This document shows positions 39,368 to 55,469 of a stretch of DNA of 64,000 nucleotides, in pieces. The notes beneath the pieces are model-generated. The model worked only from the letters and a program-made list of their open reading frames with translations. It was not told the origin of the DNA and made no database searches. The position numbers were made by a program, and so were the translations under genes. The DNA comes from Bacillus weihaiensis (lineage in GTDB: Bacteria > Bacillota > Bacilli > Bacillales > Bacillaceae): assembly GCF_001889165.1 (NCBI RefSeq), contig NZ_CP016020.1:3012501-3076500 (forward strand), written 5' to 3'. The number at the start of each line of letters is the position of its first letter. The first letter of the stretch is position 1.

Positions 39368-39416
39368 GATGATCCGAGAGGGATTCGAACCCCCGACCCC
39401 TACCCTGTCAAGGTAG
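39368..39416. repeat. Left attachment site with displaced 3' part of tRNA-Val
   Basis: The 49 bases are identical to 55421-55469 and comprise the acceptor 3' strand, T arm and most of the anticodon arm of tRNA-Val(GAC). This copy has no 5' half. The native tRNA terminator lies directly beside it, so this is the host's original tRNA end. Confidence 0.93.
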
Positions 39417-39467
39417 ACCGAATCAATTATTTATGTATCAATTAGTCAATAAACATTTATAGAAATC

Positions 39468-39479
39468 GACCACTTCACT
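39468..39479 (+). repeat. Probable integrase arm site, left end
   Basis: GACCACTTCACT occurs 52 bases inside the left attachment core and again, inverted, 84 bases inside the right core at 55326-55337. Facing copies near both ends are the expected layout for integrase arm-type sites. Confidence 0.45.
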
Positions 39480-39538
39480 TATTATTTTTACAATTTCTAT
39501 TATAAAGTGGTTGTATAAATTTGTAAAGTGTTCCTTTA

Positions 39539-40120
39539 CTAAACAATTTCACAAGTTAAAATTAATAGTCCATTTTTAGTGAAGTCTCTATTAATTACCT
39601 TCCATTTAGATTCATAGAGATCATATTCATAGTTAATTTTAAACATATCCTTGTTTGAGGAATTATCCTGTAGAATTAAACTCATTTGATTATTAGGTAA
39701 CCTTATAGCACTAGATTGACTAACACTAAACATTGTTTTTTCTATAATTATTGGAACGAATATAGATTCACCTTCTATGTATTCATAGATTGGTAGTCCA
39801 AATACATCTGTGCCAACTTGAGTTTTTGTCGTTTCACCAGGAATATTAATAACATAATTACAATGTCTTATAAGCGCTTTATACTTAGAATTTCGCTTAG
39901 TTATAGACTCTGTGATAACTAAGTAATACTCACCTTCTAATTCAACCAAATCACCCCTAGAAACGTCTGAAAGAGTATGTATATATCTTTCCTCCGCTTC
40001 ACTAATAGAGGGGTTAGTAATTAACACTTTTGTTGTTTCTCCATTTATCAAAACATCTTTTCCAGCGTTATCTAATAAGAATTGAACATCATTTGTATTC
40101 GTTTCAAGTGGATTAAACAT
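39539..40120 (-). CDS. Satellite protein, possible head-tail joining component
   Basis: The 193-residue product is beta-rich, with DVSRGDLVELEGEYYLVITE near residue 51 resembling small phage stopper or head-closure proteins. I base this on secondary-structure impression and on position after a connector-like protein, not on a clear motif. It is the last gene of the head block, with GGGGG before its start. If it is a head-closure protein it would form the surface to which a helper tail binds. Confidence 0.4.
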   Translation of the reverse strand: MFNPLETNTNDVQFLLDNAGKDVLINGETTKVLITNPSISEAEERYIHTLSDVSRGDLVELEGEYYLVITESITKRNSKYKALIRHCNYVINIPGETTKTQVGTDVFGLPIYEYIEGESIFVPIIIEKTMFSVSQSSAIRLPNNQMSLILQDNSSNKDMFKINYEYDLYESKWKVINRDFTKNGLLILTCEIV

Positions 40121-40136
40121 CTATATCCCCCTTCCA

Positions 40137-40472
40137 TTAAGAGTTAAATAGCATAAAGAAATTACTATCTGATTCATCTCTTTTCATAGTTCTAATTTTC
40201 CTCTCTAATTGATCTATACGTGATTGTATATTCTCCGCAAAGTCAGAAACAGACATATCATCTTCTTTGTAGTTTTTCATGTTTGATGGATTATTAGCAA
40301 TTGATTCAAGGATACTTAATGCTGCACAATATATGCTGCGTTTAGAGGTGGATGATTGAGGATTGTATTCTTGATGTGGGTTTAAATCGGCTTCCATAAG
40401 GTAGATAGATAATTCTTCTTGAGATAAGGTAATTCCTTTTACTTCTAATTGTAGCCGCTGTAAGTTTGTCAT
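40137..40472 (-). CDS. Satellite connector-like (head-tail adaptor) protein
   Basis: The 111-residue, largely helical protein has SKRSIYCAALSILESIANNP near residue 44 and a C-terminal coiled segment RIDQLERKIRTM. This layout resembles phage head-tail connector or adaptor proteins of the gp6/gp15 class. It follows a 111-residue protein after two bases. GGAGG precedes its ATG. The call is moderate because only pattern resemblance supports it. Confidence 0.5.
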   Translation of the reverse strand: MTNLQRLQLEVKGITLSQEELSIYLMEADLNPHQEYNPQSSTSKRSIYCAALSILESIANNPSNMKNYKEDDMSVSDFAENIQSRIDQLERKIRTMKRDESDSNFFMLFNS

Positions 40473-40474
40473 TG

Positions 40475-40810
40475 TTAATCCTCCTTGTTTATGTGATATT
40501 CGTGGTAAACATCAATGATAAATGCTTTAACTGTATCTTCTGTTACTTCATTACCTAGACCAACATACCAAGATTTACTAAACTCAAACCATTTACCATT
40601 CTGATCTAATATGTATCTTCTAAATTGATTACCATATTGTTTATGAAATCCACGTAAATAAGAATGTCCGCCTGTAGAATGTTTAATTTCTTGGTGTTCA
40701 ATCTTACTAATGAAATCAGTAGATAAATATTCACTGACATATTCACTAAACTGCTTAATAAAATCATGATATTTCACTTTATAGATAGCGTCATATTGAT
40801 ATTGTTGCAT
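40475..40810 (-). CDS. Satellite protein of unknown function in the head block
   Basis: The 111-residue product has no recognised motif. A His-rich central part SYLRGFHKQYGNQFRRYILD and aromatic FEFSKSWYVGLGN stretches suggest a compact structural fold. It is translated immediately before the connector-like gene, so a role in head completion is possible. AAAGGAG precedes the start. Confidence 0.5.
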   Translation of the reverse strand: MQQYQYDAIYKVKYHDFIKQFSEYVSEYLSTDFISKIEHQEIKHSTGGHSYLRGFHKQYGNQFRRYILDQNGKWFEFSKSWYVGLGNEVTEDTVKAFIIDVYHEYHINKED

Positions 40811-40841
40811 TGGTCACACTCCTTTCATAAAAAATAAAAAA

Positions 40842-40861
40842 AAGTGCCGAAAATGGCACTT
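40842..40861 (-). terminator. Terminator directly after the FxLYD-domain gene
   Basis: AAGTGCC pairs with GGCACTT around a 6-base loop. The minus-strand copy is followed by eight T residues. It begins three bases after the stop codon. Confidence 0.85.
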
Positions 40862-40863
40862 CC

Positions 40864-41727
40864 CTAATAATCTGTATTAAAATCGACAACTTCTACCTTA
40901 TATTTTGGATACTTTTGTCCTACCATTTGTGTCATAATCTCAAAACTTTTTCTTTCATTAGGTAATAGTGAATCACTGCTATTTACAAAAGATGTTTCAG
41001 TATCAAGTACATTTCCATCTTTATCAAAGTATGTAACCTTAACTTCTACAAAACTATAAGCAAATTCACTGTTATTTTTAACTGCTCCTGTAACATAAAT
41101 ATAATCACCGTCAATTGTGCCTTTATGCTCCACCACTTCTATACTTGGTGTATTATCTGTAGATTCTGAATTAGTTGTAGTAATATTTTCTTTCTCATTT
41201 GAAACATTTCTTGGATTGTAATCTCCGTTTTCATCATACGAAACTTCCATTGAATAATTAACTTCCTCATTTAAATCCACATTAGATATTTGATAATAAG
41301 TTCTATTCCCATCCTTCTCACCACTTATTACAAATGTATTAAATGAACAAATATTTTTCTTGCCACAATCGAAGTCTCCACCTGCTACACTATTATTCGA
41401 ACTCTCGTCTCTTACAGTTTCGATTATAGTTTGCATGATATTCAATTTTTCAATATCGTCTAAGTTTTCGAAATCTGCTGTTGGATTACTAGAAACAAAA
41501 TAATCTGCAAATCTAAAACCTTCTGTCTTATTAACTGATTCTTCATCACGAAAGAAAACTACATCATTAATATATTCATTAATTTCTTCATTCTGTAAGA
41601 TTGCTTCCTCATATTTTGGGAAATCATCTTCAATAAATCTGTTATTATAGAAATAAAAACTTACAATAATAACACTTAATGAAATGACATAAGCAATGAT
41701 AAACTTTACAGACAATAATTTCTTCAA
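40864..41727 (-). CDS. Membrane-anchored FxLYD-domain protein of the satellite
   Basis: The 287-residue product has one N-terminal membrane helix (residues 8-27), a long polar extracytoplasmic part and a C-terminal FxLYD domain. The domain is seen in DGDYIYVTGAVKNNSEFAYS and VKVTYFDKDGNVLDTETSF. The start is a TTG with GGGGGA seven bases upstream. A surface protein in a satellite might alter phage adsorption or the host envelope, but this is inference. It interrupts the head genes and has its own terminator. Confidence 0.65.
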   Translation of the reverse strand: MKKLLSVKFIIAYVISLSVIIVSFYFYNNRFIEDDFPKYEEAILQNEEINEYINDVVFFRDEESVNKTEGFRFADYFVSSNPTADFENLDDIEKLNIMQTIIETVRDESSNNSVAGGDFDCGKKNICSFNTFVISGEKDGNRTYYQISNVDLNEEVNYSMEVSYDENGDYNPRNVSNEKENITTTNSESTDNTPSIEVVEHKGTIDGDYIYVTGAVKNNSEFAYSFVEVKVTYFDKDGNVLDTETSFVNSSDSLLPNERKSFEIMTQMVGQKYPKYKVEVVDFNTDY

Positions 41728-41852
41728 AATTAATCCCCCTTATGTAGTATAGTTAAATTTTACCACGCCAGGACATTATAAAGAACAATTATGTTTCTTA
41801 ATAAGAAAATACACCCAAATTAATGAGTGTTTTTAAAAGATTAATCTTTGAA

Positions 41853-42197
41853 TCAATTTTTTTGTAAAGTTTCTTTGAACTCTTTTAATTTAATTAACGT
41901 ATCTTTTGCTTTAGAAATATCTCTATCAAAATGCAAAGGTAAAAAGTGATCTTCTGGAAAATTTAACGAATGAGTTAAATCATTAATTGCATTGTCTAAA
42001 ACTTTAAGATTATAACATTTCTCATTGCAAAATTTATGATGACCAAATTTATAATGATTTGCATATACCAGTTCTAATGAATCATTAGGTACAATTTCAT
42101 TAGGAATAATTAATTTGAATATTTTTTCTTGTTCACTATTTTCTATATTCGTTTCGGTATTACAATTTAAACATTTATATTTTTTATCTACAATCAA
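41853..42197 (-). CDS. Small zinc-finger-like satellite protein
   Basis: The product of about 114 residues begins with CLNCNT and later has HKFCNEKCYNL, giving two CxxC-type pairs that probably hold a zinc ion. The C-terminal half is helical. I place the start at the TTG at 42197 because GGGAGG lies eight bases before it; a GTG at 42206 overlaps that site. No family was recognised. Confidence 0.5.
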   Translation of the reverse strand: MIVDKKYKCLNCNTETNIENSEQEKIFKLIIPNEIVPNDSLELVYANHYKFGHHKFCNEKCYNLKVLDNAINDLTHSLNFPEDHFLPLHFDRDISKAKDTLIKLKEFKETLQKN

Positions 42198-42250
42198 TTC
42201 GCACACCTCCCATATACCTACTTAATTCGACACAAGGGAATGATTTCCTT

Positions 42251-42418
42251 CTACGTGTATTTAATATGTTTATCCTCATCATCTAAAATAGAAAGAACTT
42301 CTCTTAATTTCTTTATTGCATCCTCTTTTGTATATAAATGGTCTTGCTCAAGATTAATTATTACACCAATAACATTTAATTTTAGTTCAATGATTTTTTC
42401 TTTCTGCATTAAATTCAT
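42251..42418 (-). CDS. Small helical satellite protein
   Basis: The 55-residue product reads as two helices, with KEKIIELKLNVIGVIINLEQ followed by EDAIKKLREVLSILDDEDKH. GGAGGTG lies four bases before the ATG. Such short helical proteins are common in phages; no function can be stated. Confidence 0.45.
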   Translation of the reverse strand: MNLMQKEKIIELKLNVIGVIINLEQDHLYTKEDAIKKLREVLSILDDEDKHIKYT

Positions 42419-42433
42419 AAAGCACCTCCACAC

Positions 42434-42948
42434 ATAATTATTAGCGAGAGGGAAAAGAGAAATACTTCTCGTGTGAAAAATTTAGTATGCTGCGGACTCA
42501 TTTTTCTGATTAGGGGTATCTATATTCAGTCATTCGTATATCTTATATGTATATAAGTGTATATAGTATACGAATCTAGTTTACATAATAGCACCTATCG
42601 GAAGTTAAGTTTTCCAAGAACCCTTATGTATCAACGCTTTAGCAACTTCTATTTATTATAAGATATACAGTATTTTATACAACCTTGATATATCAACGTT
42701 TTTAACTCTTCCTACTCTTTAAAAACTGTATAAAATTTTGGTTTTATCATCTCTAAAATATGCATGGAATCTGAATAAAAACACTGTAAAGTTAATATAC
42801 TTGACAGAATATTTTTTTCTACCCAACTAGCCTATTTTTTTTGACTGGCTCGCTGACCGTTTCATAACAAGAGCGAAAGTTTCAATATATCACTTTACCC
42901 TCTCACCCTTGTCATATCAACAATTCCATTTAATCAATCTTATTCTAT
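42434..42948. other. Non-coding region with a nested palindrome
   Basis: ATTCGTATA (42532-42540) pairs with TATACGAAT (42567-42575), enclosing CTTATAT/ATATAAG (42542-42548 and 42551-42557). A second inverted repeat ATTTTATACA/TGTATAAAAT spans about 42672-42738, and TATCAACG-type repeats occur near 42630 and 42695. No gene is seen. This could hold regulatory sites or a replication or packaging signal. Confidence 0.5.
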
Positions 42949-44283
42949 TTAAATCTCTAATACCTCTACTTTATCCTCTATCTGACTACCCTCTTCATTT
43001 ATCCTTTGTAACTCCATTTGCACATCACTTGTATATGGACTATGTGATAGTAGGCTTTCTAAACTCAATCCACCTAACAGACGTAATTCTTTGATGTTCT
43101 CAATAATCTCCTTATCATTTGAAGGCATAGCATATTGAAATACAATATCTAAACTCTCATAATCATCTTCACTGAACGTTATACCTTTATACGCTAACAA
43201 TGTTCTAATCTTATCAAATCTTTGTTCTAACCCATCACGCATAAACTGTTCATTCATTCCTGCTTTAATATTAGCCAATGAGAACAATAACTTTATACTA
43301 ACCTCACTTAGATTAGATATATCTGTCTTGTTCATACTGACAGCAGGTGTCTGTGATATGTCTAGTAATGATTGTACTAGAGTCTTATAGATAGTATTAA
43401 ATGATTGATAGTCCAATTGATTACTTACCATCTTGAAATCGCTGCCATCATCTAATTGGATACCCTGACCTACAACATTAGCCGATATACCTTCACCTTT
43501 TAATTGTTGACCAATAGCAACTGGAATAGGATTATGATGTTTATAGAAAGAATCTGTATATTTACTAATTAAATCTTCCATTGAATCTAATAGACTAATC
43601 CAATCCTCTAATTCACTTCTACCTTCTGTGGCACTCAATTCATTTTGATTATGATATACAATTGGTAATCCACTAATATTAGGATTCTGACCTACTAAGC
43701 GTAATTTACCACCTAGATTGTTATAACTATATACAATTTCATCTGTAAACACAGTATAATAACTAACTGCGTCTTGGACATATGCTTCAATGAACGCAAT
43801 TAAGTTATTCTCATTATCGTATATTGGATAACTTGCAGAAGGATCAATTAACTTACTTTTAATAACTCCTTTATCCATATAGATATATTCAGCACAGATT
43901 CCATATTTGTTTATCTTATCGAGAATAGAGATATTTAAACGGTCATATTTACCTTTCTTATTTACCTTTTGATACTCTCTCACAACATTCTCTTTACCTG
44001 TCAATGTAATAGGATTCTGTAATAAATATGCTGTTTGAAAGTTTAATAACGTTTTAGCATATTGCAGTATAATCTTTCTCGGTTTAAACTCTTTTCCATT
44101 GTACAATTCACTAGGTCTATTTAATATCGCATGAAAACCGTTTAAATATTCTTTTAAGTCATTTATTTTAGTAACCCTTTGTTGCTGGCTAACCATTCCT
44201 ATTTCATCTAAGAACCACTCTGAACGATTCTCATGATACTGTTTCAAATAGGTTTCTAATTTATCCTGTAGTTCACTTTTCAC
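42949..44283 (-). CDS. Portal protein of the satellite
   Basis: The 444-residue protein matches SPP1 gp6-type portals. It starts with a helical region containing NRPSELYNGKEFKPRKIILQ, then QTAYLLQNPITLTG, and PIVYHNQNELSATEGRSELE followed by LDSMEDLISKYTDSF. The C-terminal NKTDISNLSEVSIKLLFSLA block is also typical. The start is GTG with GGGGG upstream. The portal is the ring through which the terminase pumps DNA into the capsid. It follows the large terminase gene, the usual order. Confidence 0.85.
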   Translation of the reverse strand: MKSELQDKLETYLKQYHENRSEWFLDEIGMVSQQQRVTKINDLKEYLNGFHAILNRPSELYNGKEFKPRKIILQYAKTLLNFQTAYLLQNPITLTGKENVVREYQKVNKKGKYDRLNISILDKINKYGICAEYIYMDKGVIKSKLIDPSASYPIYDNENNLIAFIEAYVQDAVSYYTVFTDEIVYSYNNLGGKLRLVGQNPNISGLPIVYHNQNELSATEGRSELEDWISLLDSMEDLISKYTDSFYKHHNPIPVAIGQQLKGEGISANVVGQGIQLDDGSDFKMVSNQLDYQSFNTIYKTLVQSLLDISQTPAVSMNKTDISNLSEVSIKLLFSLANIKAGMNEQFMRDGLEQRFDKIRTLLAYKGITFSEDDYESLDIVFQYAMPSNDKEIIENIKELRLLGGLSLESLLSHSPYTSDVQMELQRINEEGSQIEDKVEVLEI

Positions 44284-44310: not shown

Positions 44311-44335
44311 GGTTAGGACTTAAATGCACCTAACC
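44311..44335 (-). terminator. Hairpin overlapping the large terminase stop codon
   Basis: GGTTAGG (44311-44317) pairs with CCTAACC (44329-44335). On the minus strand TTATTTTTATT follows. It sits between terminase and portal and may act as an attenuator. Confidence 0.65.
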
Positions 44336-45931
44336 TGCTATATCCACGTACCATTTACCAACTTTAATTCCTTGAACTGCTAATGCAGATGAAATAACTA
44401 AGTCATCATGATTCTTTTCACCTTTTTTGTTACCCATCTTGCCATCTGACTCTTGGAATATCTGCATTTGTTGAAGCGTTTCTTTACACTCTATATTTAT
44501 TAATCCTCGTTCAAATTGCTCTTTGAAATCACTAATTAGTACACTCTTACTTGCTACTGTTGTCATGAAACCTAATTGCATTTTCTTTTTACCTTTTTGG
44601 TCGAACATCTTCTGCTTATATAGATTCATGTAATTGTAATCTCTTCTTAAACGCTCTAATAATGGAGAACCGTAACTATTTCTTTCCACACAAAGAAAAG
44701 CGTAATTGTACAATCTACCAATCTCATTTACTATTTCTGCAAATAAATAAACAGGTACCTTGTTATTGTAGAAACTAAGCACCTGTTGTCCATCTGAATC
44801 AAATAATGAAATTGTAGAATCATCACCGCCACCACCAGCAGACGTATCAACACCACCGTAATACTTCATACCACGTTTAGGTAAATGATAGATATATAAA
44901 CCACGATTCACATATTTGTGAAGTATAACATCTAGTTCAGGCTGCACTGTAGCCTTTTCCATTGGTGGAAGTAGATAATTAATCCTTTCTAGTACCTTAG
45001 ATTGATCAAATACACTTAACCCTGTACTAATGAAACTTTCCATTGGATTTGAAGGATACTCTTGTTGAAAATCCTGTAAATCCATATCAAGTAATTTATA
45101 TCTTCTCCACATTAGGAAACGTAAATTAGCACCACTTTTATGTAACATCTTCTCTTCTGGCTCTAATTCTGCTACAGATAACCGTTTACCTTTATTATCT
45201 TCCTTGTACCATTTCTCGGCTTCGTCATGGTCATTTTTGAATTGCTTTTTATACAAGTCATGATAGAAAGGAATGAACATAGCCTTGTACTTTGAATTAC
45301 CTTTCCATGCAGACATGAACAATTCATAATACTTATTTCCGATACCATTAGAAGTAGTTTCAATGGTTAATTGACTAATATCACCTTTCATAAGCGACTG
45401 TTCAGCAGATAACAATTGCATATCTTGTTTACTGTAAAAAGCAAACTCCGATAAATGGATATAACTGTATGTACTACCACGACCAATAGATTTGTTACCT
45501 GCAACAATACAACTAATCCTAGAACCGTTATTAAAGAATATTTCATCTCTATTTTCCCTTCTTACTTTAGGGAATAAATCAGGATATTTGTCTCTAGGCA
45601 ACCATTCTTGCATAGTTTTCAACTTCTCAAATAATGCCTTTGATGAATCTAATTTATAGGAAACAATAATAATATTTTCATTTTCGTTTTTTAATGCTCT
45701 CCACAATGCTTTAGCCAGGGTATAAGTAGATATCCCTCCTTGACGGGCCTTAGAAACAATTACAAAGCGATTCTTATTCATAAGGTTATTTAACTCTAAC
45801 TGTGCAGTATTTAGTTCTAATTTAACCTTCTCGTTGTTGTTATCAATAATATAAACAAAGTTTTTTGCAAACAGTGTAAAGTCATCCATTATCATTTTCA
45901 GTTTTTGTTGCTTGGTCATCTTTGTTGTCAT
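44330..45931 (-). CDS. Terminase large subunit of the satellite
   Basis: The 533-residue protein has a Walker A-like SKARQGGISTYT at residues 60-71, a Walker B-like SYIHLSEFAFY near 156-166, and an RNase-H-like nuclease. The nuclease's first acidic loop is GGVDTSAGGGGDDSTISLFD near 359-378, with Glu416 in LCVERNSYG and the last aspartates in HDDLVIS. It should cut and package the element's own DNA. An intact large terminase is unusual for classical PICIs, which borrow it from the helper. GGGGGTGAG precedes the ATG. Confidence 0.92.
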   Translation of the reverse strand: MTTKMTKQQKLKMIMDDFTLFAKNFVYIIDNNNEKVKLELNTAQLELNNLMNKNRFVIVSKARQGGISTYTLAKALWRALKNENENIIIVSYKLDSSKALFEKLKTMQEWLPRDKYPDLFPKVRRENRDEIFFNNGSRISCIVAGNKSIGRGSTYSYIHLSEFAFYSKQDMQLLSAEQSLMKGDISQLTIETTSNGIGNKYYELFMSAWKGNSKYKAMFIPFYHDLYKKQFKNDHDEAEKWYKEDNKGKRLSVAELEPEEKMLHKSGANLRFLMWRRYKLLDMDLQDFQQEYPSNPMESFISTGLSVFDQSKVLERINYLLPPMEKATVQPELDVILHKYVNRGLYIYHLPKRGMKYYGGVDTSAGGGGDDSTISLFDSDGQQVLSFYNNKVPVYLFAEIVNEIGRLYNYAFLCVERNSYGSPLLERLRRDYNYMNLYKQKMFDQKGKKKMQLGFMTTVASKSVLISDFKEQFERGLINIECKETLQQMQIFQESDGKMGNKKGEKNHDDLVISSALAVQGIKVGKWYVDIAG

Positions 45932-45953: not shown

Positions 45954-45976
45954 GAGAAGTTTCCAATGAACCTCTC
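45954..45976 (-). terminator. Hairpin between small and large terminase genes
   Basis: As minus-strand RNA, GAGAGGTT pairs with AACTTCTC over eight positions with one G-U pair, followed by TTTTTATG. The plus-strand copy would have an A-C mismatch, so the structure belongs to the minus transcript. Confidence 0.65.
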
Positions 45977-46370
45977 AAATTTCTAAATCATCATCTTCTT
46001 CAATTATTTCTTCATCTACACTAAATGCTTTTTCGGCTGCCTTTGCATAATTAGATATATCCTTTTGTAATTGGAGAAATAATTTTACACTTTGTGTTTC
46101 TCCTGTCTTGGCTAATTCAGATACCTTCTTATAGATTTCATCTAAATCATTAGCAATACAACTGTCTAAGTAAATTGCTAGTAGTTGCTTATACTCGGCT
46201 GTACGTTCCCATTTAATAAACTCGTTCATAGTCTTATTGCCAATCATATTTAAAAATTCTTCCGCTGTCTTTTGTGGAAGAGTTTGATCATAACGAATAT
46301 CATGTTTCCATTTGAAATACTCTGCTTTCTTCCAACCCCTAAGTTGCTTCAACGCTTCATAGATGCTCAT
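45975..46370 (-). CDS. Terminase small subunit-like protein
   Basis: The 131-residue, highly helical protein lies directly before the large terminase, the standard position of the DNA-recognition subunit. KTAEEFLNMIGNKTMNEFIK and the acidic tail EEIIEEDDDLEI fit small terminases of the phBC6A51 type, which start with a helix-turn-helix. Its ATG overlaps the stop of the upstream gene as TAATG, so the two are coupled. It would choose the packaging site and is a key specificity factor of the satellite. Confidence 0.7.
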   Translation of the reverse strand: MSIYEALKQLRGWKKAEYFKWKHDIRYDQTLPQKTAEEFLNMIGNKTMNEFIKWERTAEYKQLLAIYLDSCIANDLDEIYKKVSELAKTGETQSVKLFLQLQKDISNYAKAAEKAFSVDEEIIEEDDDLEI

Positions 46371-47845: not shown

Positions 47846-48025
47846 TTAGTTGTTTAGTTGTTTGTACTCTGCAAGTGCCTTTTGTAAATCGTCATTAATG
47901 TAATAAAGTGAGAACATTTTCTGTGATTTCGGCTCAATTGCTACACATATAAAATTGATTCCTTTAGTTTTTAGAAAGTCGCTTACTCGTTTGTTATAAA
48001 CAAAGAAAAAATCTGATTTATTCAT
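47846..48025 (-). CDS. DUF5659-type small protein
   Basis: The 59-residue product begins MNKSDFFFVYNKRVSDFLKT, then GINFICVAIEPKSQKMFSLYY, which fits the DUF5659 pattern (DFFFxYxKxxxxFLxxKGxxFI). The start at 48025 has AGGAGG six bases upstream. These small proteins occur in Gram-positive phages and plasmids. Their function is unknown. Confidence 0.6.
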   Translation of the reverse strand: MNKSDFFFVYNKRVSDFLKTKGINFICVAIEPKSQKMFSLYYINDDLQKALAEYKQLNN

Positions 48026-48050
48026 GTGATTACCTCCTGGAATTTTAAAA

Positions 48051-48071
48051 GGAGTGCCATTAAGACACCCC
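48051..48071 (-). terminator. Hairpin after the 293-residue protein gene
   Basis: Minus-strand RNA pairs GGGGTG with CACTCC (one G-U) and is followed by TTTT. It lies between the 293-residue protein gene and the DUF5659 gene. Confidence 0.55.
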
Positions 48072-48084
48072 ACAGAGTTATGTA

Positions 48085-48966
48085 TTACGCTGGATAACTT
48101 GTATAAACTACTTTATCCCGATTAATTACAGACAAAGAAAAAACATGACCATTAAGATCATGTTTAGACATTCCTGTATAAAATTTTGTATTAATTGGTT
48201 TAGCTAGTTCAAAATAATTTACGAAAGTGATTTCCAAACTAAAATCTAACATCGGGAAATGTTCTTTTAAATAATCTAAATCTAAACCAGTTCCTAAACC
48301 AGTTCCTTTAGTAAATATACTTCCTTTTAATTTTTTATCCTTTTGAAAATGTTCTAATTCCTTTTGTGTACTATTGTCAAATATATCTTGAAACATTTCT
48401 AATTCCAATACTCGTTGCCATCTGTAAAAGTAGTCATATCCTTCATAGTGTTTATGTAAATAAGCACCTAAAAAGTAACTATCAATGGAAACAAGTATCT
48501 TTTTTTGTTCATCCGTTAATTCTTTATGGTTAGGTAATAATAATTTATCAAATGCTTCATAGAGTGATAAAACAGTTAATGCGGTAGACCCACCATATTT
48601 ACGGAAATAAGTTGTTGATTGAATTGAACCGCCACCATATACACCTTTTGCAAAATTATTCAAATTAGCCGACATTGGATTTACAGTATCTCCCTTTGTC
48701 ATTCTTGTAACGTGATTGCAAAAAGTTTTAATCTCTTTATCTTCAATCGCTAAATCTGCACCGATTAATTTTGTTTTATCAAATCTTTCTGACTTTGTAG
48801 AATATAAAGTTTTGAAGTCATAAAATAAACCTACCTGACACCCGAATAAATGTTTTAATACAGCTACTGTAAATAAACTATCCAAGTCATTTGTAAGGAT
48901 TAATTTATAATCCTCATTAATATCATTTGTCCAACTTTGAAATTTTTCTTTCAATACTTGCTTCAT
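48085..48966 (-). CDS. Satellite protein with a DHH-like N-terminus
   Basis: The 293-residue product starts with KLILTNDLDSLFTVAVLKHL, followed by GLFYDFKTLY and KLIGADLAIED. These aspartate-containing strands recall DHH phosphoesterases of the RecJ type (DxDS, then D), although a full DHH motif is absent. The C-terminal half is unassigned. The gene lacks a normal ribosome site: the only purine-rich stretch is inside a 9-bp hairpin that ends six bases before the ATG, and a larger structured region lies upstream. Translation may therefore be regulated. Confidence 0.5.
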   Translation of the reverse strand: MKQVLKEKFQSWTNDINEDYKLILTNDLDSLFTVAVLKHLFGCQVGLFYDFKTLYSTKSERFDKTKLIGADLAIEDKEIKTFCNHVTRMTKGDTVNPMSANLNNFAKGVYGGGSIQSTTYFRKYGGSTALTVLSLYEAFDKLLLPNHKELTDEQKKILVSIDSYFLGAYLHKHYEGYDYFYRWQRVLELEMFQDIFDNSTQKELEHFQKDKKLKGSIFTKGTGLGTGLDLDYLKEHFPMLDFSLEITFVNYFELAKPINTKFYTGMSKHDLNGHVFSLSVINRDKVVYTSYPA

Positions 48967-49204: not shown

Positions 49205-49378
49205 TTATTTTTTATCTATGTATTCTCTATATCTCTTTATTTTGCTGTCACTCATACCACAATCACCAGTCTCATAGCGACTGATCAATGATTGGCTACA
49301 GCCTATATTTTTTGCTAATTCCTTCATTGAAATTTTCTTTTGTCTACGTTTTAAAAAATACTCATCCTTTTTAATCAT
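49205..49378 (-). CDS. Small XRE-type DNA-binding protein
   Basis: The 57-residue product is little more than a helix-turn-helix: SMKELAKNIGCSQSLISRYE followed by a short helix. The start at 49378 uses AGGAG upstream; the longer frame would run into the terminator stem. Such mini-repressors control lysogeny genes or Rep expression in phages and satellites. It lies between capsid and the structured region. Confidence 0.75.
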   Translation of the reverse strand: MIKKDEYFLKRRQKKISMKELAKNIGCSQSLISRYETGDCGMSDSKIKRYREYIDKK

Positions 49379-49400
49379 TCCTTTTTCTCCTAAATAAAAA

Positions 49401-49428
49401 GAGCCTACAAGCATATGCAAGTAGACCC
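49401..49428 (-). terminator. Terminator after the capsid gene
   Basis: Minus-strand RNA pairs GGGTCTAC with GTAGGCTC (two G-U pairs) and encloses the palindrome GCATATGC; TTTTTATTT follows. It starts 19 bases after the capsid stop codon. Confidence 0.8.
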
Positions 49429-49446: not shown

Positions 49447-50319
49447 TTATTCTGTAACAGTCACAACTGCTACTGCTTTCTTAGAACCAACTTTAAGAGT
49501 AGATTCAGCAATTACATGACCTTTAACTGAATCACCTGTTTTAGCAAGTGCTTCAAAGTGTGGCTCACGAAGGTAAACTAAATCAACATAAGCGTCATTA
49601 AACACAACAATCTTATCTGCTGGAACATGTTTAGATAGAACAAAGTTCACTTTACCGTAATTAGTATTGATTGATTCAACTAATAGACCAAATGATGTAG
49701 TTACGTGATTGTAACCATATTTGTCTTTGTAGATGTTATCAACTTGTTCCTTTAAATCTGCATTAAGGAAAGCATATACTGTACCTTCTGCTAAATCTTG
49801 ATTCCAAAGTTTACGCATTACCTCTTTAACTTTTTCCTCTGTAACAACACCAGTAACACTTACAGCATTAGAAGCGTCTGCCATTTCAATAAGACCTGAT
49901 AATTGACGTTTGAATGGAGTTACAGAACCATCTGCCTTTAATCCATTGATAAACTTTTTCTCCATGTTAATTTTCAATTCAAGTAAACGGTCATTAACTT
50001 CTTCTGCTAATTGGTTACGTTTCATAGCAATTGCTGTTCCACTTAATGAAGCACCTTTTTTAAAGATTTCAAGAATGTTAGATAATTCTGCTCTAGCAGA
50101 CTCGAAAAATTCTGTAGTATCTTCACCTTCAAGTGCTGATAAATCATCAGTTTGATCCAATGTTTTTTCTCTCCATGTATAAACTGTGCTAAGTGCTTTC
50201 TCAATGTTACCTTTTGCCATAAGCATAGAAGTAAATGGAGTTGCTTGCACACCGATAATAGCAATTTCTTGTGATAATGAAATTTGTTCAGTTTTAGTAA
50301 AGTTTTCAGATGTAAACAT
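49447..50319 (-). CDS. Major capsid protein, DUF5309/SU10 type
   Basis: The 290-residue protein shows the SU10-like capsid pattern: an N-terminal VQATPFTSMLMAKGNIEKAL, then STVYTWREKTLDQTDDLSAL. The central EEVNDRLLELKINMEKKFI helix and a C-terminal VNFVLSKHVPADKIVVFNDA with DLVYLREPHFEALAKTGDS are also typical. It should form the satellite's own icosahedral shell. The upstream gene is a scaffold-like protein, the standard neighbour. GAGGAG precedes the ATG. An empty reading of the element as a capsid thief, like classical PICIs, is therefore unlikely. Confidence 0.85.
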   Translation of the reverse strand: MFTSENFTKTEQISLSQEIAIIGVQATPFTSMLMAKGNIEKALSTVYTWREKTLDQTDDLSALEGEDTTEFFESARAELSNILEIFKKGASLSGTAIAMKRNQLAEEVNDRLLELKINMEKKFINGLKADGSVTPFKRQLSGLIEMADASNAVSVTGVVTEEKVKEVMRKLWNQDLAEGTVYAFLNADLKEQVDNIYKDKYGYNHVTTSFGLLVESINTNYGKVNFVLSKHVPADKIVVFNDAYVDLVYLREPHFEALAKTGDSVKGHVIAESTLKVGSKKAVAVVTVTE

Positions 50320-50371: not shown

Positions 50372-50400
50372 AAGCACCATATACAATGTATAAAGTGCTT
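50372..50400 (-). terminator. Hairpin between scaffold and capsid genes
   Basis: AAGCAC (50372-50377) pairs with GTGCTT (50395-50400), with an inner TATAC/GTATA. TTTTTTATA follows on the minus strand. Confidence 0.7.
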
Positions 50401-50815
50401 ACTTAAATAGGTTTGCTAATTTTGTACCAATCATGCCTTTAGTATTCTTTTCTTGTTCAAACTTATCATATGGATTTGTTTGCTTATGGTCTGTTGGAAC
50501 ATAAGAATTTTCCACTTTGTATTCTTGTAAAACTGCTTGAAACTTTTCAATTTTTTCTACAAGTTGTTCAGTAGACTCAACAACAAAGAACTCTTCAAAT
50601 TTACCAAGACCTGCTGCCTTAACTTCAAGAGATACTTCTTTATCAAATAACTCTTTCTGTTTAGTTAGCATTGCTTTTTCATCTTCTGACAAATCTTTTG
50701 GTTTGAACTGTAAAAGTTCATCCCTTTCTGAAACAATCGGACTTAATTCTAGCTCAATCCATTCTTGTTTCATTTGATCAACTTGCTCCTGGGTAAAACT
50801 GATTTCTTCTGCCAT
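50399..50815 (-). CDS. Scaffold-like protein of the satellite
   Basis: The 138-residue protein is charged and helical: QEQVDQMKQEWIELELSPIV, a coil with EDEKAMLTKQKELFDKEVSL, and a basic C-terminus GMIGTKLANLFK. This profile and its position directly before the capsid gene fit a capsid scaffold (GP20/DUF4355-like). AGGAGG precedes the start. The profile is typical but not specific. Confidence 0.65.
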   Translation of the reverse strand: MAEEISFTQEQVDQMKQEWIELELSPIVSERDELLQFKPKDLSEDEKAMLTKQKELFDKEVSLEVKAAGLGKFEEFFVVESTEQLVEKIEKFQAVLQEYKVENSYVPTDHKQTNPYDKFEQEKNTKGMIGTKLANLFK

Positions 50816-50898: not shown

Positions 50899-51126
50899 TT
50901 ACTTAACCTCTTCTTTTAAATTTGTAATTTGCATTTCCAACCTTTCAAGCGATTGGACAATTTTTTCTTGTGCTTCATTTTGTTTATTAATTTGTGCAGT
51001 TAATCTTTGTTCACGTTCTCTACTATCTTTTTGTTGATTAACTAAAAGCCAAATAAACAAACAAGCAAATATTCCATTCGATACTAATTGATCTATTGGA
51101 ACAGTAGTAATATCCACTGTAAACAC
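50899..51126 (-). CDS. BhlA/UviB-family holin-like peptide
   Basis: The 75-residue product has one membrane helix, SNGIFACLFIWLLVNQQKD, followed by a long charged coiled coil. This is the family layout of BhlA and UviB. These peptides are found in phages and bacteriocin loci and are thought to permeabilise the membrane. No endolysin gene is visible in the element. GGAGG precedes its start. It may help release, or assist the helper's lysis system. Confidence 0.85.
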   Translation of the reverse strand: MFTVDITTVPIDQLVSNGIFACLFIWLLVNQQKDSREREQRLTAQINKQNEAQEKIVQSLERLEMQITNLKEEVK

Positions 51127-51799: not shown

Positions 51800-53029
51800 C
51801 TAAACAGTTTTATTTCTCATTTTGCGCATATTTTCTTTTACCTTTTCATTTCTAACCTTAATTCTACAATCAGAACAGTATTTAGTTCTATTGCTGTTTT
51901 TCACTATCTTAATTCCACAATCAGTACAATTACCAAATAACACTTTATTTCTACCAAACAACTTATCATACTCGCCTGATAAATTATTTACATCAATAAC
52001 TATTCCATCAGTTAATTCACTATCAGCAAATAATACCTTTATCTTTTCATGCGCTTGATTTTCTTCATAAAACACATCTCCACCTATTAACCTTGCAAAA
52101 TCGTTTCTAGAATAAATCCATGCTATATAATCAATATTCTTCTTTATGTAGTCCAAGTTAATGCTACTGTAGAACTTATCTAGTTCATCATCACCAAGCA
52201 TATCTTCTTCATTCACTTTATGTCTACTTACTTTAAATGCTTCTTTCTGCTCAGGTGTCATTTCTTTATAGTAATCAGAAGTTTTTAAATAAGGAGTTTC
52301 ATAATAATCCTGCTCATATCTCCATATCGCAATTGCACTTTTTCTTGTAGGTCTTAACAAGTGGCTTTCATACTTTATCGCATCGTAAGGTATAAATAAC
52401 TCACCATATTGACTATCAACCTCCACTAATTTCTCAAGTAACCTTTTCCTTCTTTCAACCCTATTGTTGTAACGATATATTATTTTTTCCTTAAATAACA
52501 AAGTAAAATATATATCCTTCAATTTTTTCCCATTTGCATTTATCCCTATCTCATTTGCAATTTGATGCATTGATGCTCTATATGGTTTATTACCATTCGC
52601 CTTCCACATACATAGCATGGTGAATGCAATTTTACGTGTTGTATTATCTGACAAAGAATTAATTTGATCTATCTCATTTTGTGTAATCCTAATAGCTCTA
52701 CAAACTTTCATGTGTTGCTTCTTTGATCCGCTAATAGCACCATCAATCAAACCCTTAAATATTAATTGATTATTGATTGGGAATTTTTTAATCCTTATTA
52801 ATTCCTCTAATTTTTCTTTTATCAATTTATCATTGTTTATCTTTTCAACATGATAGTAATATTTAGCCATAAGGAATACATCTTTGAACATGTGATTACT
52901 AATTGTCTTTCCAATCTTAATTATAAGTTTGGCATACTCGACTTCATCCCAAATGTAATATTTAGATGTTCCAACCCAATTATCACTGTATACTTCACTG
53001 ATTTTTTCTATAAATTTATAGTTTGGCAT
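51800..53029 (-). CDS. Satellite protein with C-terminal zinc ribbon
   Basis: The 409-residue protein has a possible helix-turn-helix (YRASMHQIANEIGINANGKK near residue 154) and a C-terminal four-cysteine ribbon, NCTDCGIKI then TKYCSDCR. It ends in a very basic tail RNEKVKENMRKMRNK. This points to nucleic-acid binding, perhaps in replication or late-gene control. AAGGAG precedes the ATG. It is the largest satellite gene without a recognised family. Confidence 0.55.
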   Translation of the reverse strand: MPNYKFIEKISEVYSDNWVGTSKYYIWDEVEYAKLIIKIGKTISNHMFKDVFLMAKYYYHVEKINNDKLIKEKLEELIRIKKFPINNQLIFKGLIDGAISGSKKQHMKVCRAIRITQNEIDQINSLSDNTTRKIAFTMLCMWKANGNKPYRASMHQIANEIGINANGKKLKDIYFTLLFKEKIIYRYNNRVERRKRLLEKLVEVDSQYGELFIPYDAIKYESHLLRPTRKSAIAIWRYEQDYYETPYLKTSDYYKEMTPEQKEAFKVSRHKVNEEDMLGDDELDKFYSSINLDYIKKNIDYIAWIYSRNDFARLIGGDVFYEENQAHEKIKVLFADSELTDGIVIDVNNLSGEYDKLFGRNKVLFGNCTDCGIKIVKNSNRTKYCSDCRIKVRNEKVKENMRKMRNKTV

Positions 53030-53076
53030 ATTGATTATCTCCTTTGATTATATTGTAATACATTTTTACGATAAAA

Positions 53077-53105
53077 TTGACTTTTTATTGAGGACTATTT
53101 AAATT
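53077..53105 (+). promoter_or_regulatory. Possible plus-strand promoter for a non-coding RNA
   Basis: TTGACT (53077-53082) and TAAATT (53100-53105) are separated by 17 bases. It is the only plausible sigma-A promoter I see pointing right into the gene-free stretch that ends at the terminator at 53720. Confidence 0.4.
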
Positions 53106-53111
53106 AATGCA

Positions 53112-53756
53112 TGACTTGCTTTTGTGGTTTCGGCTTGATTGGTTGAGGGAATAGCAACGGCTGGACAAAGTTGTTGCCTACTGTCAAAGATAAAAAAATC
53201 AATGACAATAGACAAGCGACTTGATTGTATATCGGTCATAGTATCCGTATGTATCAACCCTATTTGTCGGAGAATTTTCTTCTCAACAAGCCTACTGTCA
53301 AAAGTTTGCCCATGACAGGAAGTGTGGTTTGTCTTGCAGGTATATCTACCTCAAACTTTCCAACCGAACCGTTAACGGTCGTTCGCACCATTCAGACACT
53401 AGCATGAAAAAGGGAAAATGCTTATTGTATCCTATCCTGTTTTTATGGCTTTGGCACAGTCCTAAACCTGACGATGGATATTTATAGTCGATTTAATCGG
53501 CAACCTCGACTGAAACACCCTTCCTATTGCAGATACTTTTTTATAAAATAAACCTAGTCCTACCAATGGATTTAAGAGAACCATTCGGAAAATATTGGTC
53601 ATTTTTCAGAAAAAAGACAATAGGAAACTAGACCCCTTGTAATCTATTTTTTAAAATTTTATAATAGAGGGGAATAAGGTGTTTCTTATTCAGTTTTTAT
53701 TCGACAAAATAAAAGCGTGGAGACAAGGTATTGCGAGTACCTTGTCTCTTTTTTTT
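53112..53756 (+). ncRNA. Candidate large structured non-coding RNA of the satellite
   Basis: This gene-free stretch of about 640 bases is visibly richer in G and C than the surrounding genes and is full of local hairpins. Examples are CTGTCA/TGACAG (53295-53300 with 53313-53318), AGTCGA/TCGACT near 53486-53512, ACCAAT/ATTGGT near 53561-53599 and CCCC/GGGG near 53633-53682. GCCTACTGTCAAA occurs twice (53176 and 53290), both times as the left arm of a similar hairpin. It begins after a promoter-like site and ends at a perfect terminator on the plus strand, opposite to all satellite genes. Confidence 0.55.
53720..53756 (+). terminator. Perfect plus-strand terminator
   Basis: GAGACAAGGTA (53720-53730) pairs perfectly with TACCTTGTCTC (53738-53748) around a 7-base loop, followed by eight T residues. 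It may also work for the leftward gene that ends at 53762, but the T tract is on the plus strand. Confidence 0.85.
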
Positions 53757-53761
53757 ATTCT

Positions 53762-53992
53762 TTATAATTCAAACGCTCTTTCGACTTGCACCTCAAAATC
53801 ATGAACTTTTGGGGTAATTAATTGTTCATTAATGGTAGTGATTTGTAATTTTATCGCCTTTATGCCTAATTCATCTAGTTTTACTTGAGCATGATAAATT
53901 GCTTCTTCCATGTTAGAACATTCTACTTCTATAGATATAGGCAAGTTTATAGTGCCAAACACTTCATATTTTTGGTTATTTTTTGTTTTCAT
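53762..53992 (-). CDS. Small satellite protein of unknown function
   Basis: The 76-residue product looks like an alpha/beta fold: KYEVFGTINLPISIEVECSN, a helix MEEAIYHAQVKLDEL, and two strands. AGGGAGAG precedes its start. It is the last of three small genes after the integrase. No family was recognised. Confidence 0.5.
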   Translation of the reverse strand: MKTKNNQKYEVFGTINLPISIEVECSNMEEAIYHAQVKLDELGIKAIKLQITTINEQLITPKVHDFEVQVERAFEL

Positions 53993-54006
53993 TTTAATCT
54001 CTCCCT

Positions 54007-54264
54007 TTAAATTTTCACTCTACAATCTAATCCTGCAAATAATGACCAACCATCAGTAGATATTGTATTTACTGCTTCCTCATAAGTAATGGGATAGTAT
54101 TCACCATCATTAATAACTTCTATTAAATTTGATTCATTTAGAGTAATTAACTCACCTACAGGCAATTGTAAGAAGGCTTGTCTATCCTCTATTACTAAAG
54201 TTCCAAATTGTTTCTGTAAAAGAAAAGCGTCAATCATATAGATAGTTTCTTTTATAGAGTTCAT
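54007..54264 (-). CDS. Small satellite protein coupled to the SinI-like peptide
   Basis: The 85-residue product has no recognised motif; LPVGELITLNESNLIEVIND and YYPITYEEAVNTISTDGWS suggest a small beta-rich domain. Its ATG overlaps the TGA of the SinI-like gene as ATGA, so the two are translated together. A joint role in regulation is plausible. Confidence 0.5.
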   Translation of the reverse strand: MNSIKETIYMIDAFLLQKQFGTLVIEDRQAFLQLPVGELITLNESNLIEVINDGEYYPITYEEAVNTISTDGWSLFAGLDCRVKI

Positions 54265-54377
54265 TTTGGCTCCCCCTTTTGATTAATTAAAAATGATTTA
54301 ATCTGTTCAATCGTCAACCCAATTTTTTTCGCTTCCAAGAACAATTCCAACCATTCACTTTTAGTTGGTTCAGTCAT
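54261..54377 (-). CDS. SinI-like antirepressor peptide (38 residues)
   Basis: The short frame begins MTEPTKSEWLELFLEAKK and continues to IEQIKSFLINQKGEPK. The segment EWLELFLEAKK...IEQIKSFL closely follows the SinI dimerisation motif EWVELMVEAKE...PEEIRKYL. AGGAGG lies seven bases before the ATG, and the stop overlaps the next start. In B. subtilis SinI binds SinR and relieves its repression of biofilm genes. Here, between integrase and other small genes, it may act on a host or phage repressor of the SinR type. It was not on any longer frame and is easily missed. Confidence 0.75.
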   Translation of the reverse strand: MTEPTKSEWLELFLEAKKIGLTIEQIKSFLINQKGEPK

Positions 54378-54388
54378 TAATAGACCTC

Positions 54389-55303
54389 CTACACCTCTAA
54401 GTTATTTAATGGATTGTATCTGTCATTTTGTTCTTTGAGGTCATTTCCCCACATGGCTGCGTATTTCTCTGTAACTGATATATTTGAGTGTCTCATTAAT
54501 TTTTGAATTGCAAATGTACTCATTCCTGCTTGGATACATTTCTGACAAAACGTATGTCTAAAAGTATGACTTGATAGTCTAACATCACGAAAATTCATAA
54601 TTTTACTTAATCGTTTGAACACATTCTTTACTGCATTAGGTGTTATTTGTTCGTTCTTTTGGTTAGTAAAGATGTATTCATTTAAATTTCCTTTGAAATG
54701 TTGTTCACAAAAGACTTTATACGCTGACAGTTCTTTCATACATTTTTCTGTAACTGGAATAGTTTCACGCTTTCTGTTCTTACCGAAAAGTGACATAGTT
54801 TGTTGAGTGAAATCAATATCACTCCATTTCAATGCACACATTTCAGATAAGCGTACACCAGTGCCTAATAAGGTAACGATAATTGTGTAATCTCTATAAG
54901 AATGAAAGGCATGTTCTCTATTTTTTAACCTTCTGTAATAATTCAACATTTGTTTAATGTGATAATCTGTAAAAACATCAATTTTAATATCTTCTCTAGC
55001 CTTTTGAATTTTCTTAGCAGGGTTCTTTTCGATAACTTCACATTCAATCATATAGTTTAAGAATGCTCTAATACGCTGTAACTTTGAGTTAGTTGTTGTT
55101 GCGTTGTTACCTTTCTTTTGGCAATAAATTAGATATTTCTTGATAGTATTAACGGTAATATCTTCAACATTAAGTAACTCGTTAGTAGTACAGAAATCTT
55201 CAAATTGTTTCAAGATTACCTTGTAACTTTCAAGGGTTGATTGGGAAACATTTTTAAATTCTCTGTCCTCTAAAAAATCTTGTAGGGCAAATTTAATTAA
55301 CAA
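54389..55303 (-). CDS. int: Tyrosine-type site-specific integrase
   Basis: The 304-residue protein has an N-terminal SAM-like core-binding domain (SQSTLESYKVILKQFEDFCT) and a catalytic domain. The expected residues are Arg151 in GVRLSEM, His246 and Arg249 in HTFRHTF, His272 in LMRHSN and the nucleophile Tyr281. It integrates the element at the tRNA-Val gene, 120 bases away. The start is a TTG at 55303, whose AGGTGG ribosome site sits in the 3' arm of a terminator hairpin. No excisionase-like gene is recognised. Confidence 0.93.
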   Translation of the reverse strand: MLIKFALQDFLEDREFKNVSQSTLESYKVILKQFEDFCTTNELLNVEDITVNTIKKYLIYCQKKGNNATTTNSKLQRIRAFLNYMIECEVIEKNPAKKIQKAREDIKIDVFTDYHIKQMLNYYRRLKNREHAFHSYRDYTIIVTLLGTGVRLSEMCALKWSDIDFTQQTMSLFGKNRKRETIPVTEKCMKELSAYKVFCEQHFKGNLNEYIFTNQKNEQITPNAVKNVFKRLSKIMNFRDVRLSSHTFRHTFCQKCIQAGMSTFAIQKLMRHSNISVTEKYAAMWGNDLKEQNDRYNPLNNLEV

Positions 55304-55308
55304 AAAAA

Positions 55309-55337
55309 GACCACCTCACATTTTTAGTGAAGTGGTC
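55309..55337 (-). terminator. Terminator hairpin that also contains the integrase ribosome site
   Basis: Minus-strand RNA pairs GACCACTTCAC with GTGAGGTGGTC over 11 positions (one G-U), then seven T residues. It follows the tRNA-Val gene by about 85 bases and replaces the displaced native terminator. AGGTGG in the 3' arm is seven bases before the integrase TTG. Confidence 0.8.
55326..55337 (-). repeat. Probable integrase arm site, right end
   Basis: Inverted copy of GACCACTTCACT at 39468-39479, placed 84 bases inside the right core. It overlaps the terminator hairpin, so the match could partly reflect that structure. Confidence 0.4.
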
Positions 55338-55420
55338 TTTAGTTTGTATGGCGGTTATTACTCCGACCATAACATTTTTTAATTTTTATAAATGGCTAAA
55401 ACCATTGATACGTATAGAAT

Positions 55421-55469
55421 GATGATCCGAGAGGGATTCGAACCCCCGACCCCTACCCTGTCAAGGTAG
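55421..55469. repeat. Right attachment site within the intact tRNA-Val gene
   Basis: It is identical to 39368-39416. The repeat ends inside the anticodon stem. The element's own copy of the tRNA 3' part rebuilds a functional tRNA gene. Confidence 0.93.

Follow-up and report, generated by a model that had tools for sequence, protein, structure and literature searches.

Capsid-forming PICIs (cf-PICIs) were reportedly described by Alqurainy et al. in 2023. PICI-type regulation consists of divergent repressor and AlpA/excisionase genes, and the E. coli-type cf-PICI has an HK97-type capsid, a head protease and an HNH gene. In two published accounts, cf-PICIs are integrated elements, on average 14 kb long, which encode their own capsids and packaging functions and depend on helper tails (PMC11389934, PMC10803314), and they are reported from Bacillaceae too (PMC10803314). 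The same accounts have PICI/SaPI, P4, PLE and PICMI using or remodelling helper heads (PMC10803314, PMC11389934).

Here, we analysed an element integrated in a 64,000-nt stretch of Bacillus weihaiensis DNA (the window). It resembles PICI/SaPI, P4, PLE and PICMI as a small integrated putative satellite and differs from them in encoding its own head. Like the cf-PICIs it is integrated, has its own capsid and packaging genes and has no recognised tail genes. A preliminary description had proposed that it follows the cf-PICI strategy and may form a separate lineage; the gene side of the strategy was found in its own integrase, att repeats, terminases, portal and capsid. Unlike in the cf-PICIs, the capsid is SU10-type (PF17236) and not HK97-type, no protease or HNH family was matched, the capsid module is parted from the terminase and portal genes by the HTH, f7, f2 and replication genes, no AlpA or divergent regulators were found, the stopper is YomX-type, and there are integrase-less circular relatives and relatives with YonO. 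A lineage separate from the cf-PICIs so far described is likely because of this anatomy, namely the SU10 capsid, the lack of a detectable protease, the split of capsid from terminase and portal, and the lack of detectable PICI regulators. In the literature searched, which took in few subscription papers, no description of such elements or of SPbeta satellites was found. The element is probably an intact capsid-forming satellite, of a lineage apparently distinct from PICIs, which would take its tails from SPbeta-like phages.

Boundaries and gene content of the element

The insertion measures 16,053 bp from start to start of its two 49-nt direct repeats, and the right copy overlaps tRNA-Val(gac) at 55423-55494 on the minus strand. 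These exact repeats, the tRNA gene and the PF00589 match confirm the integrase-bearing tRNA-Val insertion that had been claimed. In two congeners a stretch of the left flank, about 70 bp in G004 and about 53 bp in G001, directly abuts the tRNA core, which is consistent with an empty insertion site. Further core copies lie 50-65 kb away in both congeners, and other islands could sit there. The features are as follows, where fractions of 26 refer to distinct complete elements, the window's included.

39368-39416: attachment repeat, far end; 49 nt, identical to the int-proximal copy
39539-40120, minus: head-closure (stopper) protein by predicted fold, SPbeta YomX homologue by profile match; last gene
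40137-40472, minus: probable head-tail adaptor
40475-42433, minus: variable block of cargo separating the portal gene from the adaptor gene and comprising four genes (40475-40810, 40864-41727, 41853-42206 and 42251-42433) of families in 2-7 loci only
42949-44283, minus: portal protein, SPP1 gp6 type (PF05133, 3.6e-73)
44330-45931, minus: large terminase (TerL), Terminase_6 type (PF03237, 3.7e-8; phrog_2, 6.7e-35)
45975-46370, minus: probable small terminase, directly preceding TerL; 26/26
46848-47801, minus: probable regulator or initiator of replication (match to phrog_19047 at 3.1e-69, a family with the label transcriptional regulator)
47846-48073, minus: f2, small conserved protein; 25/26
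48085-48966, minus: f7, conserved 293-aa protein; 23/26
49205-49420, minus: small Cro-like HTH protein (PF01381, 1.3e-7); 22/26
49447-50319, minus: SU10-type major capsid protein (PF17236, 8.6e-74; phrog_1328, 4.5e-52)
50399-50815, minus: probable scaffold protein, adjoining the capsid gene; 26/26
50899-51126, minus: BhlA holin-like protein (PF10960, 2.7e-8); 20/26
51800-53029, minus: 409-aa protein with a C-terminal zinc-ribbon-like Cys motif; family in 3/63 loci
54389-55303, minus: tyrosine integrase (PF00589, 3.8e-33)
55421-55469: attachment repeat, int-proximal end, in the tRNA-Val gene; identical 49-nt copy

The head set that had been claimed is secured by family matches for TerL, portal and SU10 capsid. 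The small terminase and scaffold gave no significant Pfam or PHROG family match, and these two assignments were accepted because of their position and their presence in all 26 distinct complete elements. In one relative (L084) an apparent IS lies between the scaffold and capsid genes. The best-ranked phage matches have 29% identity for TerL and about 30% for the capsid. For the capsid these are the SU10-capsid Enterococcus phages VEsP-1, Efs 1-1-1 and SEsuP-1, with record lengths of 33.6-39.3 kb, roughly double that of the element.

The classical PICI repressor/excisionase pair was not found, in agreement with the preliminary description: there was no AlpA match among the scanned element proteins, the Cro-like gene has the same orientation as its neighbours, and the sole opposite-strand ORFs in the gene call, of 52 and 60 aa, are not gene-like because the 52-aa one is a reverse reading of DNA shared with relatives. 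The protein at 46848-47801 had no Pfam match at 0.01, and its slot is occupied in relatives by DnaD-like, Rep_O-like or AEP-primase proteins. Sequence profiles of the stopper, adaptor, f7, f12 and f10 gave no convincing match to the PDB, nor did f7 give any PDB sequence match, and a Foldseek search with the adaptor yielded nothing significant. By eye only, f7 has DHH-phosphoesterase-like motifs. The content of the cargo block varies from relative to relative. The BhlA holin-like gene, the adaptor, the head-closure gene and the replication-slot role of 46848-47801 had not been named in the preliminary description.

Kinship with SPbeta-like phages

The product of 39539-40120 is predicted to have a stopper fold of the SPP1-gp16/lambda-FII type, its model (pLDDT 84) matching neck and head-closure proteins, with one further comparison below significance. 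The stopper profile matches SPbeta YomX (1.1e-19), Perkons ORF201 (2.1e-26), LC76P1_00160 (1.6e-20) and phi127 CDS84 (4e-14), and among 55 head-to-tail-region proteins of these four SPbeta-like phages it hits the YomX orthologue alone in each. Profiles of the capsid, portal, adaptor, scaffold and small terminase found nothing below 0.02 among the same 55 proteins. In the comparison with the SPbeta portal YonE and capsid YonB, the portal profile had no match and the capsid nothing below 0.075, and TerL weakly matches SPbeta YonF (3.4e-6) and its LC76P1 orthologue (6e-7). The element is thus like the Spbetavirus-type phages (SPbeta, Perkons, LC76P1, phi127 and the prophage of genome G254) in its YomX-homologous stopper, whereas its capsid, portal and neck partners do not match those of these phages of about 134-165 kb at this sensitivity. 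The stopper was found in 19 of 397 genomes, comprising 17 with the element, one with a decayed copy and one with an SPbeta-like prophage.

YonO, the RNA polymerase of SPbeta, provides what on sequence comparison is a second SPbeta link independent of the stopper. Seven relatives share YonO or its C-terminal domain with the Spbetavirus-type phages: two carry it at full length (L068/L150 and L075/L148; 46% identity) and five carry C-terminal pieces (L137, L070, L090, L092 and L034). A tblastn search with the L150 protein found 27 phage records, and 24 of the 25 listed are SPbeta/phi3T-type phages or Perkons. The window element had no YonO match at 1e-3; the C-terminus of its 409-aa protein matches phrog_37506 (4.3e-4), a family otherwise matching YonO C-termini; compared directly with YonO, the 409-aa protein had no hit at 1e-3. 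The idea that an intergenic motif recurring in the window is an SPbeta (YonO) promoter is not supported, since the motif is not enriched in SPbeta or Perkons stretches.

The satellite probably spreads with the tails of SPbeta-like phages, since it combines a tail-less head set with a shared stopper, and some relatives have YonO. We infer a cycle in which the element would be inserted into tRNA-Val by its own integrase and, upon infection by or induction of a helper phage, would excise and replicate. With TerS, TerL and portal proteins of its own, it would then package its genome of about 16 kb into small SU10-type heads and close these with its own adaptor and YomX-type stopper, and the stopper would offer the docking face for tails of the SPbeta-like phage. 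The helper would complete lysis, and relatives with YonO or its C-terminal domain would probably tap or tune helper late transcription. The broader proposition is about as likely as not: that Bacillaceae harbour a widespread and hitherto undescribed satellite family of integrated islands and integrase-less plasmid-like circles, which makes SU10 heads of its own and is fitted to SPbeta-like phages twice, by a YomX-type closure that accepts their tails and in some members by YonO or a loose C-terminal domain of it acting on their late transcription. If true, tail-only theft has also arisen with a capsid of unrelated type and another gene order, and the two genes held in common identify the helper from sequence alone as the SPbeta-like phages. 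The question of which satellite is moved by which phage, and through which component, would then come within reach of single-gene tests. Satellite biology would moreover take in the SPbeta group, circular forms that lack an integrase, and satellites carrying or mimicking a helper RNA polymerase.

The same capsid-forming satellite could instead usually be helped by other long-tailed phages, the stopper being an old acquisition. The SPbeta-type portal is absent from the host and from the other 16 element-bearing genomes among the 397, and was found in G254 only, which lacks the element. The host genome has no tape measure above the curated cut-off and one sub-threshold match. A resident helper of the kind looked for was consequently not found, and none of the 17 elements shares its genome with an SPbeta-like prophage. 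In the stopper tree the phage stoppers stand on long branches and are not grouped with the satellites from the genus that each phage infects, and two other stopper queries (L041 and L040) gave one weak match to an SPbeta-like phage and none, respectively. A stopper could have been picked up without any durable tie to a helper. Against this stand the YonO genes or pieces in seven relatives and the tblastn search with the window stopper, in which six of 50,697 phage records matched, all of 134-165 kb, and the three that were checked have SPbeta-type heads. On balance we consider habitual help from other phages unlikely, and favour SPbeta-like phages as the tail donors.

Relatives, circular forms and the search for tail genes

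As proposed in the preliminary description, the same gene set was sought in relatives, and it recurs across many genera, the family being widespread in Bacillaceae, and in 26 distinct complete elements with common gene content and no recognised tail genes. Nine of nine further genomes have the genes for scaffold, capsid, TerL and portal, and none has a frame above 550 aa inside the element. Nine relatives are bounded by direct repeats of 31-124 bp with spans of 14.45-16.9 kb, and insertion sites are varied. Three metagenome genomes (L072, L148 and L149; 14.5-17.6 kb) are circular, with terminal overlaps of 127, 127 and 99 bp. In L072 a tRNA-like attP separates the stopper gene from int, and the two others lack an integrase. 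Deposited plasmids gave no TerL at 1e-30, so that integrase-less circles are known from metagenome contigs only; four plasmid records matched the capsid, at 29-33% identity.

The occurrence of two integrase-less circular genomes, one with its own YonO, might point to an autonomous virus with no tail or a minimal one, which would adsorb through surface proteins instead. A surface-type module of f12 and f10 is found in 17 of the 26 complete elements, the GLUG family in 12 and a shorter fibre-like family in four, and in the SPbeta-like phage Sundance a GLUG-type relative is encoded within the tail-protein region. This module and the holin-like gene suggest lysis or adsorption functions of the family's own. 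However, the window element and eight others of the 26 lack the surface module, and tail docking is the only obvious use for the stopper, so that an autonomous virus is very unlikely.

A defective prophage, left by deletion from a complete tailed phage, would also be integrated and without recognised tail or endolysin genes, and some relatives have truly decayed, such as G336 with int pieces, the adaptor and a broken stopper. The claim that tail, tape measure, baseplate and endolysin genes are missing was upheld, as no such family matched at E ≤0.1 among 20 element proteins (ORFs of at least 60 aa; the integrase was scanned separately), and the longest ORF inside the element is 533 aa. The sole tail label listed was a 0.12 match of the scaffold protein. 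Of the 122 non-core proteins that qualified in 32 element intervals, 102 were scanned, with no family contributing more than two, and they included no tail family among the commonest 25 of 65 PHROGs and 25 of 34 Pfam families, and the longest ORF in these intervals (12.9-18.8 kb, duplicates included) is 521-537 aa. A chance deletion is contradicted by the shared gene content without recognised tail genes in 26 distinct complete elements, and by the nine further genomes and three circular genomes, which are alike. In many genera this tail-less set recurs with precise boundaries, and it also occurs in closed circles. It is under purifying selection: when the window element is compared with L053, its nearest relative, 12 of 13 genes have dN/dS values of 0.011-0.281 (f7 was not computable), the stopper being the fastest-evolving of seven head, packaging and neck genes. 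The best-ranked phage matches, at only 30% (capsid) and 29% (TerL) identity, also speak against this origin, and the searches made met no complete prophage with this head set and tails. Neither of the two findings that the preliminary description would have taken as a refutation, tail genes among the unknown proteins or larger complete prophages as the relatives, thus turned up in the searches made. A deletion remnant is therefore extremely unlikely. A domesticated, gene-transfer-agent-like head locus, which could equally keep chromosomal head genes under purifying selection, is scarcely credible for an element that brings its own integrase and att repeats and whose family shows varied insertion sites and circular forms.

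L065, whose IMG/VR record is 55.9 kb, was considered as part of a larger prophage, and this was rejected as the pre-integrase DNA looks, by eye, like an integrative-conjugative element; PF10145 was matched in none of nine records, this one and eight others. Two proteins considered as tape measures, the longest of L148 (about 870 aa) and the longest of L150 (about 827 aa), are both YonO homologues, and a 417-aa family at first assigned to replication consists of surface-type proteins with GLUG repeats.

Boundaries, gene content and integrity of the element

The 16,053-bp insertion is enclosed by identical 49-nt repeats (39368-39416 and 55421-55469), of which the right copy overlaps tRNA-Val(gac), and the tRNA-Val insertion reported in the preliminary description is thereby confirmed. 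That description had also found neither tail, tape measure, baseplate or endolysin genes nor any frame of tape-measure length. In agreement with this, a scan of 20 element proteins at an E cut-off of 0.1 gave no match to any of these families, and the longest ORF of the element is 533 aa. The genes of note share one orientation.

Gene order of the element as transcribed
Integrase (PF00589)
Two small genes, then a 409-aa protein
BhlA holin-like protein, then scaffold
SU10 capsid protein (PF17236)
Small HTH protein, then a conserved 293-aa protein, then a small conserved protein
Replication or regulator protein, then a 74-aa ORF
Small terminase, then large terminase (TerL)
SPP1-type portal (PF05133)
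Four variable genes, then the probable adaptor (40137-40472, minus strand)
Last, the 193-aa stopper, a homologue of SPbeta YomX (39539-40120, minus strand)

The element in the window is intact. In comparison with the related locus L053, dN/dS calculated by our own Nei-Gojobori script was 0.011-0.281 for 12 of 13 genes (TerL 0.035, capsid 0.077, portal 0.087, adaptor 0.148, stopper 0.222), and was not computable for ORF family f7 (48085-48966). Identity to L053 was 69.8% for the stopper versus 94-97% for capsid, TerL and portal.

A cargo block (40475-42433), whose contents vary among relatives in the same slot, interrupts the head gene cluster between portal and adaptor. A 22-nt intergenic repeat occurs at 42617-42638, 42679-42700 and 53240-53261 with the core GTTGATAYAT in coding orientation; this core or a variant was also found in the related loci L053, L072 and L148, but the SPbeta and Perkons stretches showed no enrichment of it. 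It may serve as a promoter, an operator or a packaging site.

A mobile family of relatives

With capsid and TerL as queries, named genomes contributed 20 loci and viral contigs 36 and then 7, of which three sit on contigs found before. ORF clustering of 62 loci and the window gave a single common gene set. The 60 capsid-bearing loci were reduced to 46 by merging identical capsids, and 26 of these (window included) qualified as complete elements, for which integrase, capsid and TerL were required together with either adaptor or stopper; the remaining 20 were not counted. Scaffold, capsid, both terminases, portal and adaptor were present in all 26 and the stopper in 21; in the remainder (L033, L045, L047, L065 and L086) the sequence stops 107-568 bases past the adaptor, which is less than the length of a stopper gene. 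The f7 gene was kept in 23/26, and its motifs D-x-D, G-x-D, N-H and I-D-S are, as we take them by eye, similar to those of DHH phosphoesterases.

Thirty-two intervals, duplicates included, measured 12.9-18.8 kb with a longest ORF of 521-537 aa, i.e. TerL-sized. The largest, L084, carries an apparent IS21-type istA/istB pair (L084:5999-8321) between the scaffold and capsid genes. TerL of this clade (45-100% identical) was found in 17 of 397 genomes of the order, and TerL near 30% in five more. Nine further genomes among the 17 all held scaffold, capsid, TerL and portal, with adaptor and stopper reached in seven and the other two contigs ending earlier; none had a frame above 550 aa inside the element. 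A 737-aa frame in L144 precedes the integrase, outside the element. The gene set that was to be sought in other genomes is shared by 26 distinct complete elements, the window element among them, and by nine further genomes; the element is a family member, not an accident.

Some members deviate. L140 has an altered order, its scaffold and capsid genes being separated by one of fibre type, and is without f7 or the small conserved protein f2; L147 has a broken TerL. Genome G032, from the host's own family, holds a complete set (L137, G032:C7:4000-23900) with a capsid only ~25% identical, while the genes beside it match the family profiles strongly, as if that one gene had been replaced.

Families f12 and f10 precede the scaffold in 17/26 complete elements, the window element not being among them. 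A GLUG-family protein (PF07581, 1.3e-11) is found in 12 and a shorter fibre-like protein in four; nine elements lack this surface module. A relative of f10 is present in the 160-kb phage vB_BcoS-136, and a GLUG relative is located in the tail region of phage Sundance. The module proteins may be head decorations or adhesins. L090 and L091, which are without the f12-GLUG-f10 module, have stoppers (377-378 aa) that are extended at the C-terminus by Ig-like stretches (Big_2-like, by eye).

The family is mobile. Nine loci for which flanking DNA is present at either end have integrase and stopper bracketed by direct repeats (31-124 bp), which bound spans of 14,450-16,897 bp. Insertion sites vary and include tRNA-Val; others, judged from the peptides, are the 3' end of a gene that we take to be ffh and a gene that we take to be ndk. 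In the congeners G004 and G001, ~70 and 53 bp of left flank directly adjoin the tRNA core and right flank, which is consistent with an empty site. At the same locus, G012, G001, G004 and G013 have extra tRNA-core copies ~11-65 kb from the tRNA (50-65 kb in G004 and G001), which may mark other islands.

Metagenome contig L072 (16,386 bp, terminal overlap 127 bp) reads stopper, tRNA-Val-like attP, integrase. Two more metagenome genomes, L148 (17,711 bp, overlap 127) and L149 (14,624 bp, overlap 99), likewise close into circles and have all head genes. The three circles answer the concern that tail genes lie just beyond the contig ends. No integrase was seen in L148 or L149; near its slot lies a gene of MerR/DUF3967 type in the former and, by eye, one of ribbon-helix-helix type in the latter, and both are possibly plasmid-like members. 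L150 is permuted and unclosed. The long non-core proteins scanned in L148, L149 and L150 matched no tail family apart from one label at 0.047, on a protein matching a DNA-binding family at 5e-30.

Helper phages and relation to capsid-forming PICIs

Judged from its genes, the element would work in the same way as the capsid-forming PICIs (cf-PICIs). It was not filed as one because it lacks the PICI hallmarks. PMC10803314 states that cf-PICIs occur in Bacillaceae, and PMC11389934 places them in three capsid radiations. The lineage set apart here by the missing hallmarks may coincide with one of these.

We give an even chance to the family being specialised to SPbeta-like phages, with its own SU10 heads, YomX-type closure and, in some members, YonO or its domain. 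YonO, the RNA polymerase that transcribes the SPbeta late genes, provides a second link to these phages besides the stopper, and this reading gained weight from the YonO results. Full-length homologues are an 827-aa protein of L068 and L150 (46% identity in L150) and a protein spanning the ends of L148 (two pieces, 44-46%), also found in L075. With the L150 protein, tblastn gave 27 matches in 50,697 phage records; among the 25 listed, 24 came from Perkons or from Bacillus phages of the SPbeta/phi3T type, and the other from an unnamed gut phage (22%).

Several observations do not fit an SPbeta-like helper. The SPbeta portal type turned up once among the 397 genomes, in G254, and in no genome of the 17 that bear the element, and the host genome gave a single sub-threshold match to the tape-measure profile PF10145 and no second stopper. 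Two other satellite stoppers used as queries retrieved one SPbeta-like record and none, respectively, and in the stopper tree the phage stoppers cluster with L083 (support 86/81) on long branches. The usual helpers could instead be other long-tailed phages, the YomX-type stopper being an old acquisition, which we regard as rather unlikely. A foreign helper has a parallel in the proven cf-PICI EcCIEDL933, mobilised by phages foreign to its strain according to PMC11389934.

With regard to specialisation to SPbeta-like phages, the YonO C-terminal domain alone was found as a small protein in five loci (76 sources searched, duplicates included), mostly between the integrase and capsid genes; the window element had no match to YonO or this domain.

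Lone YonO C-terminal pieces
L137:17192-17650, minus strand, 1.6e-23
L070:3608-4177
L090:2121-2417
L092:345-602
L034:6694-6861, 1.2e-4

Our guess is that these are candidate regulators or decoys of a helper's polymerase.
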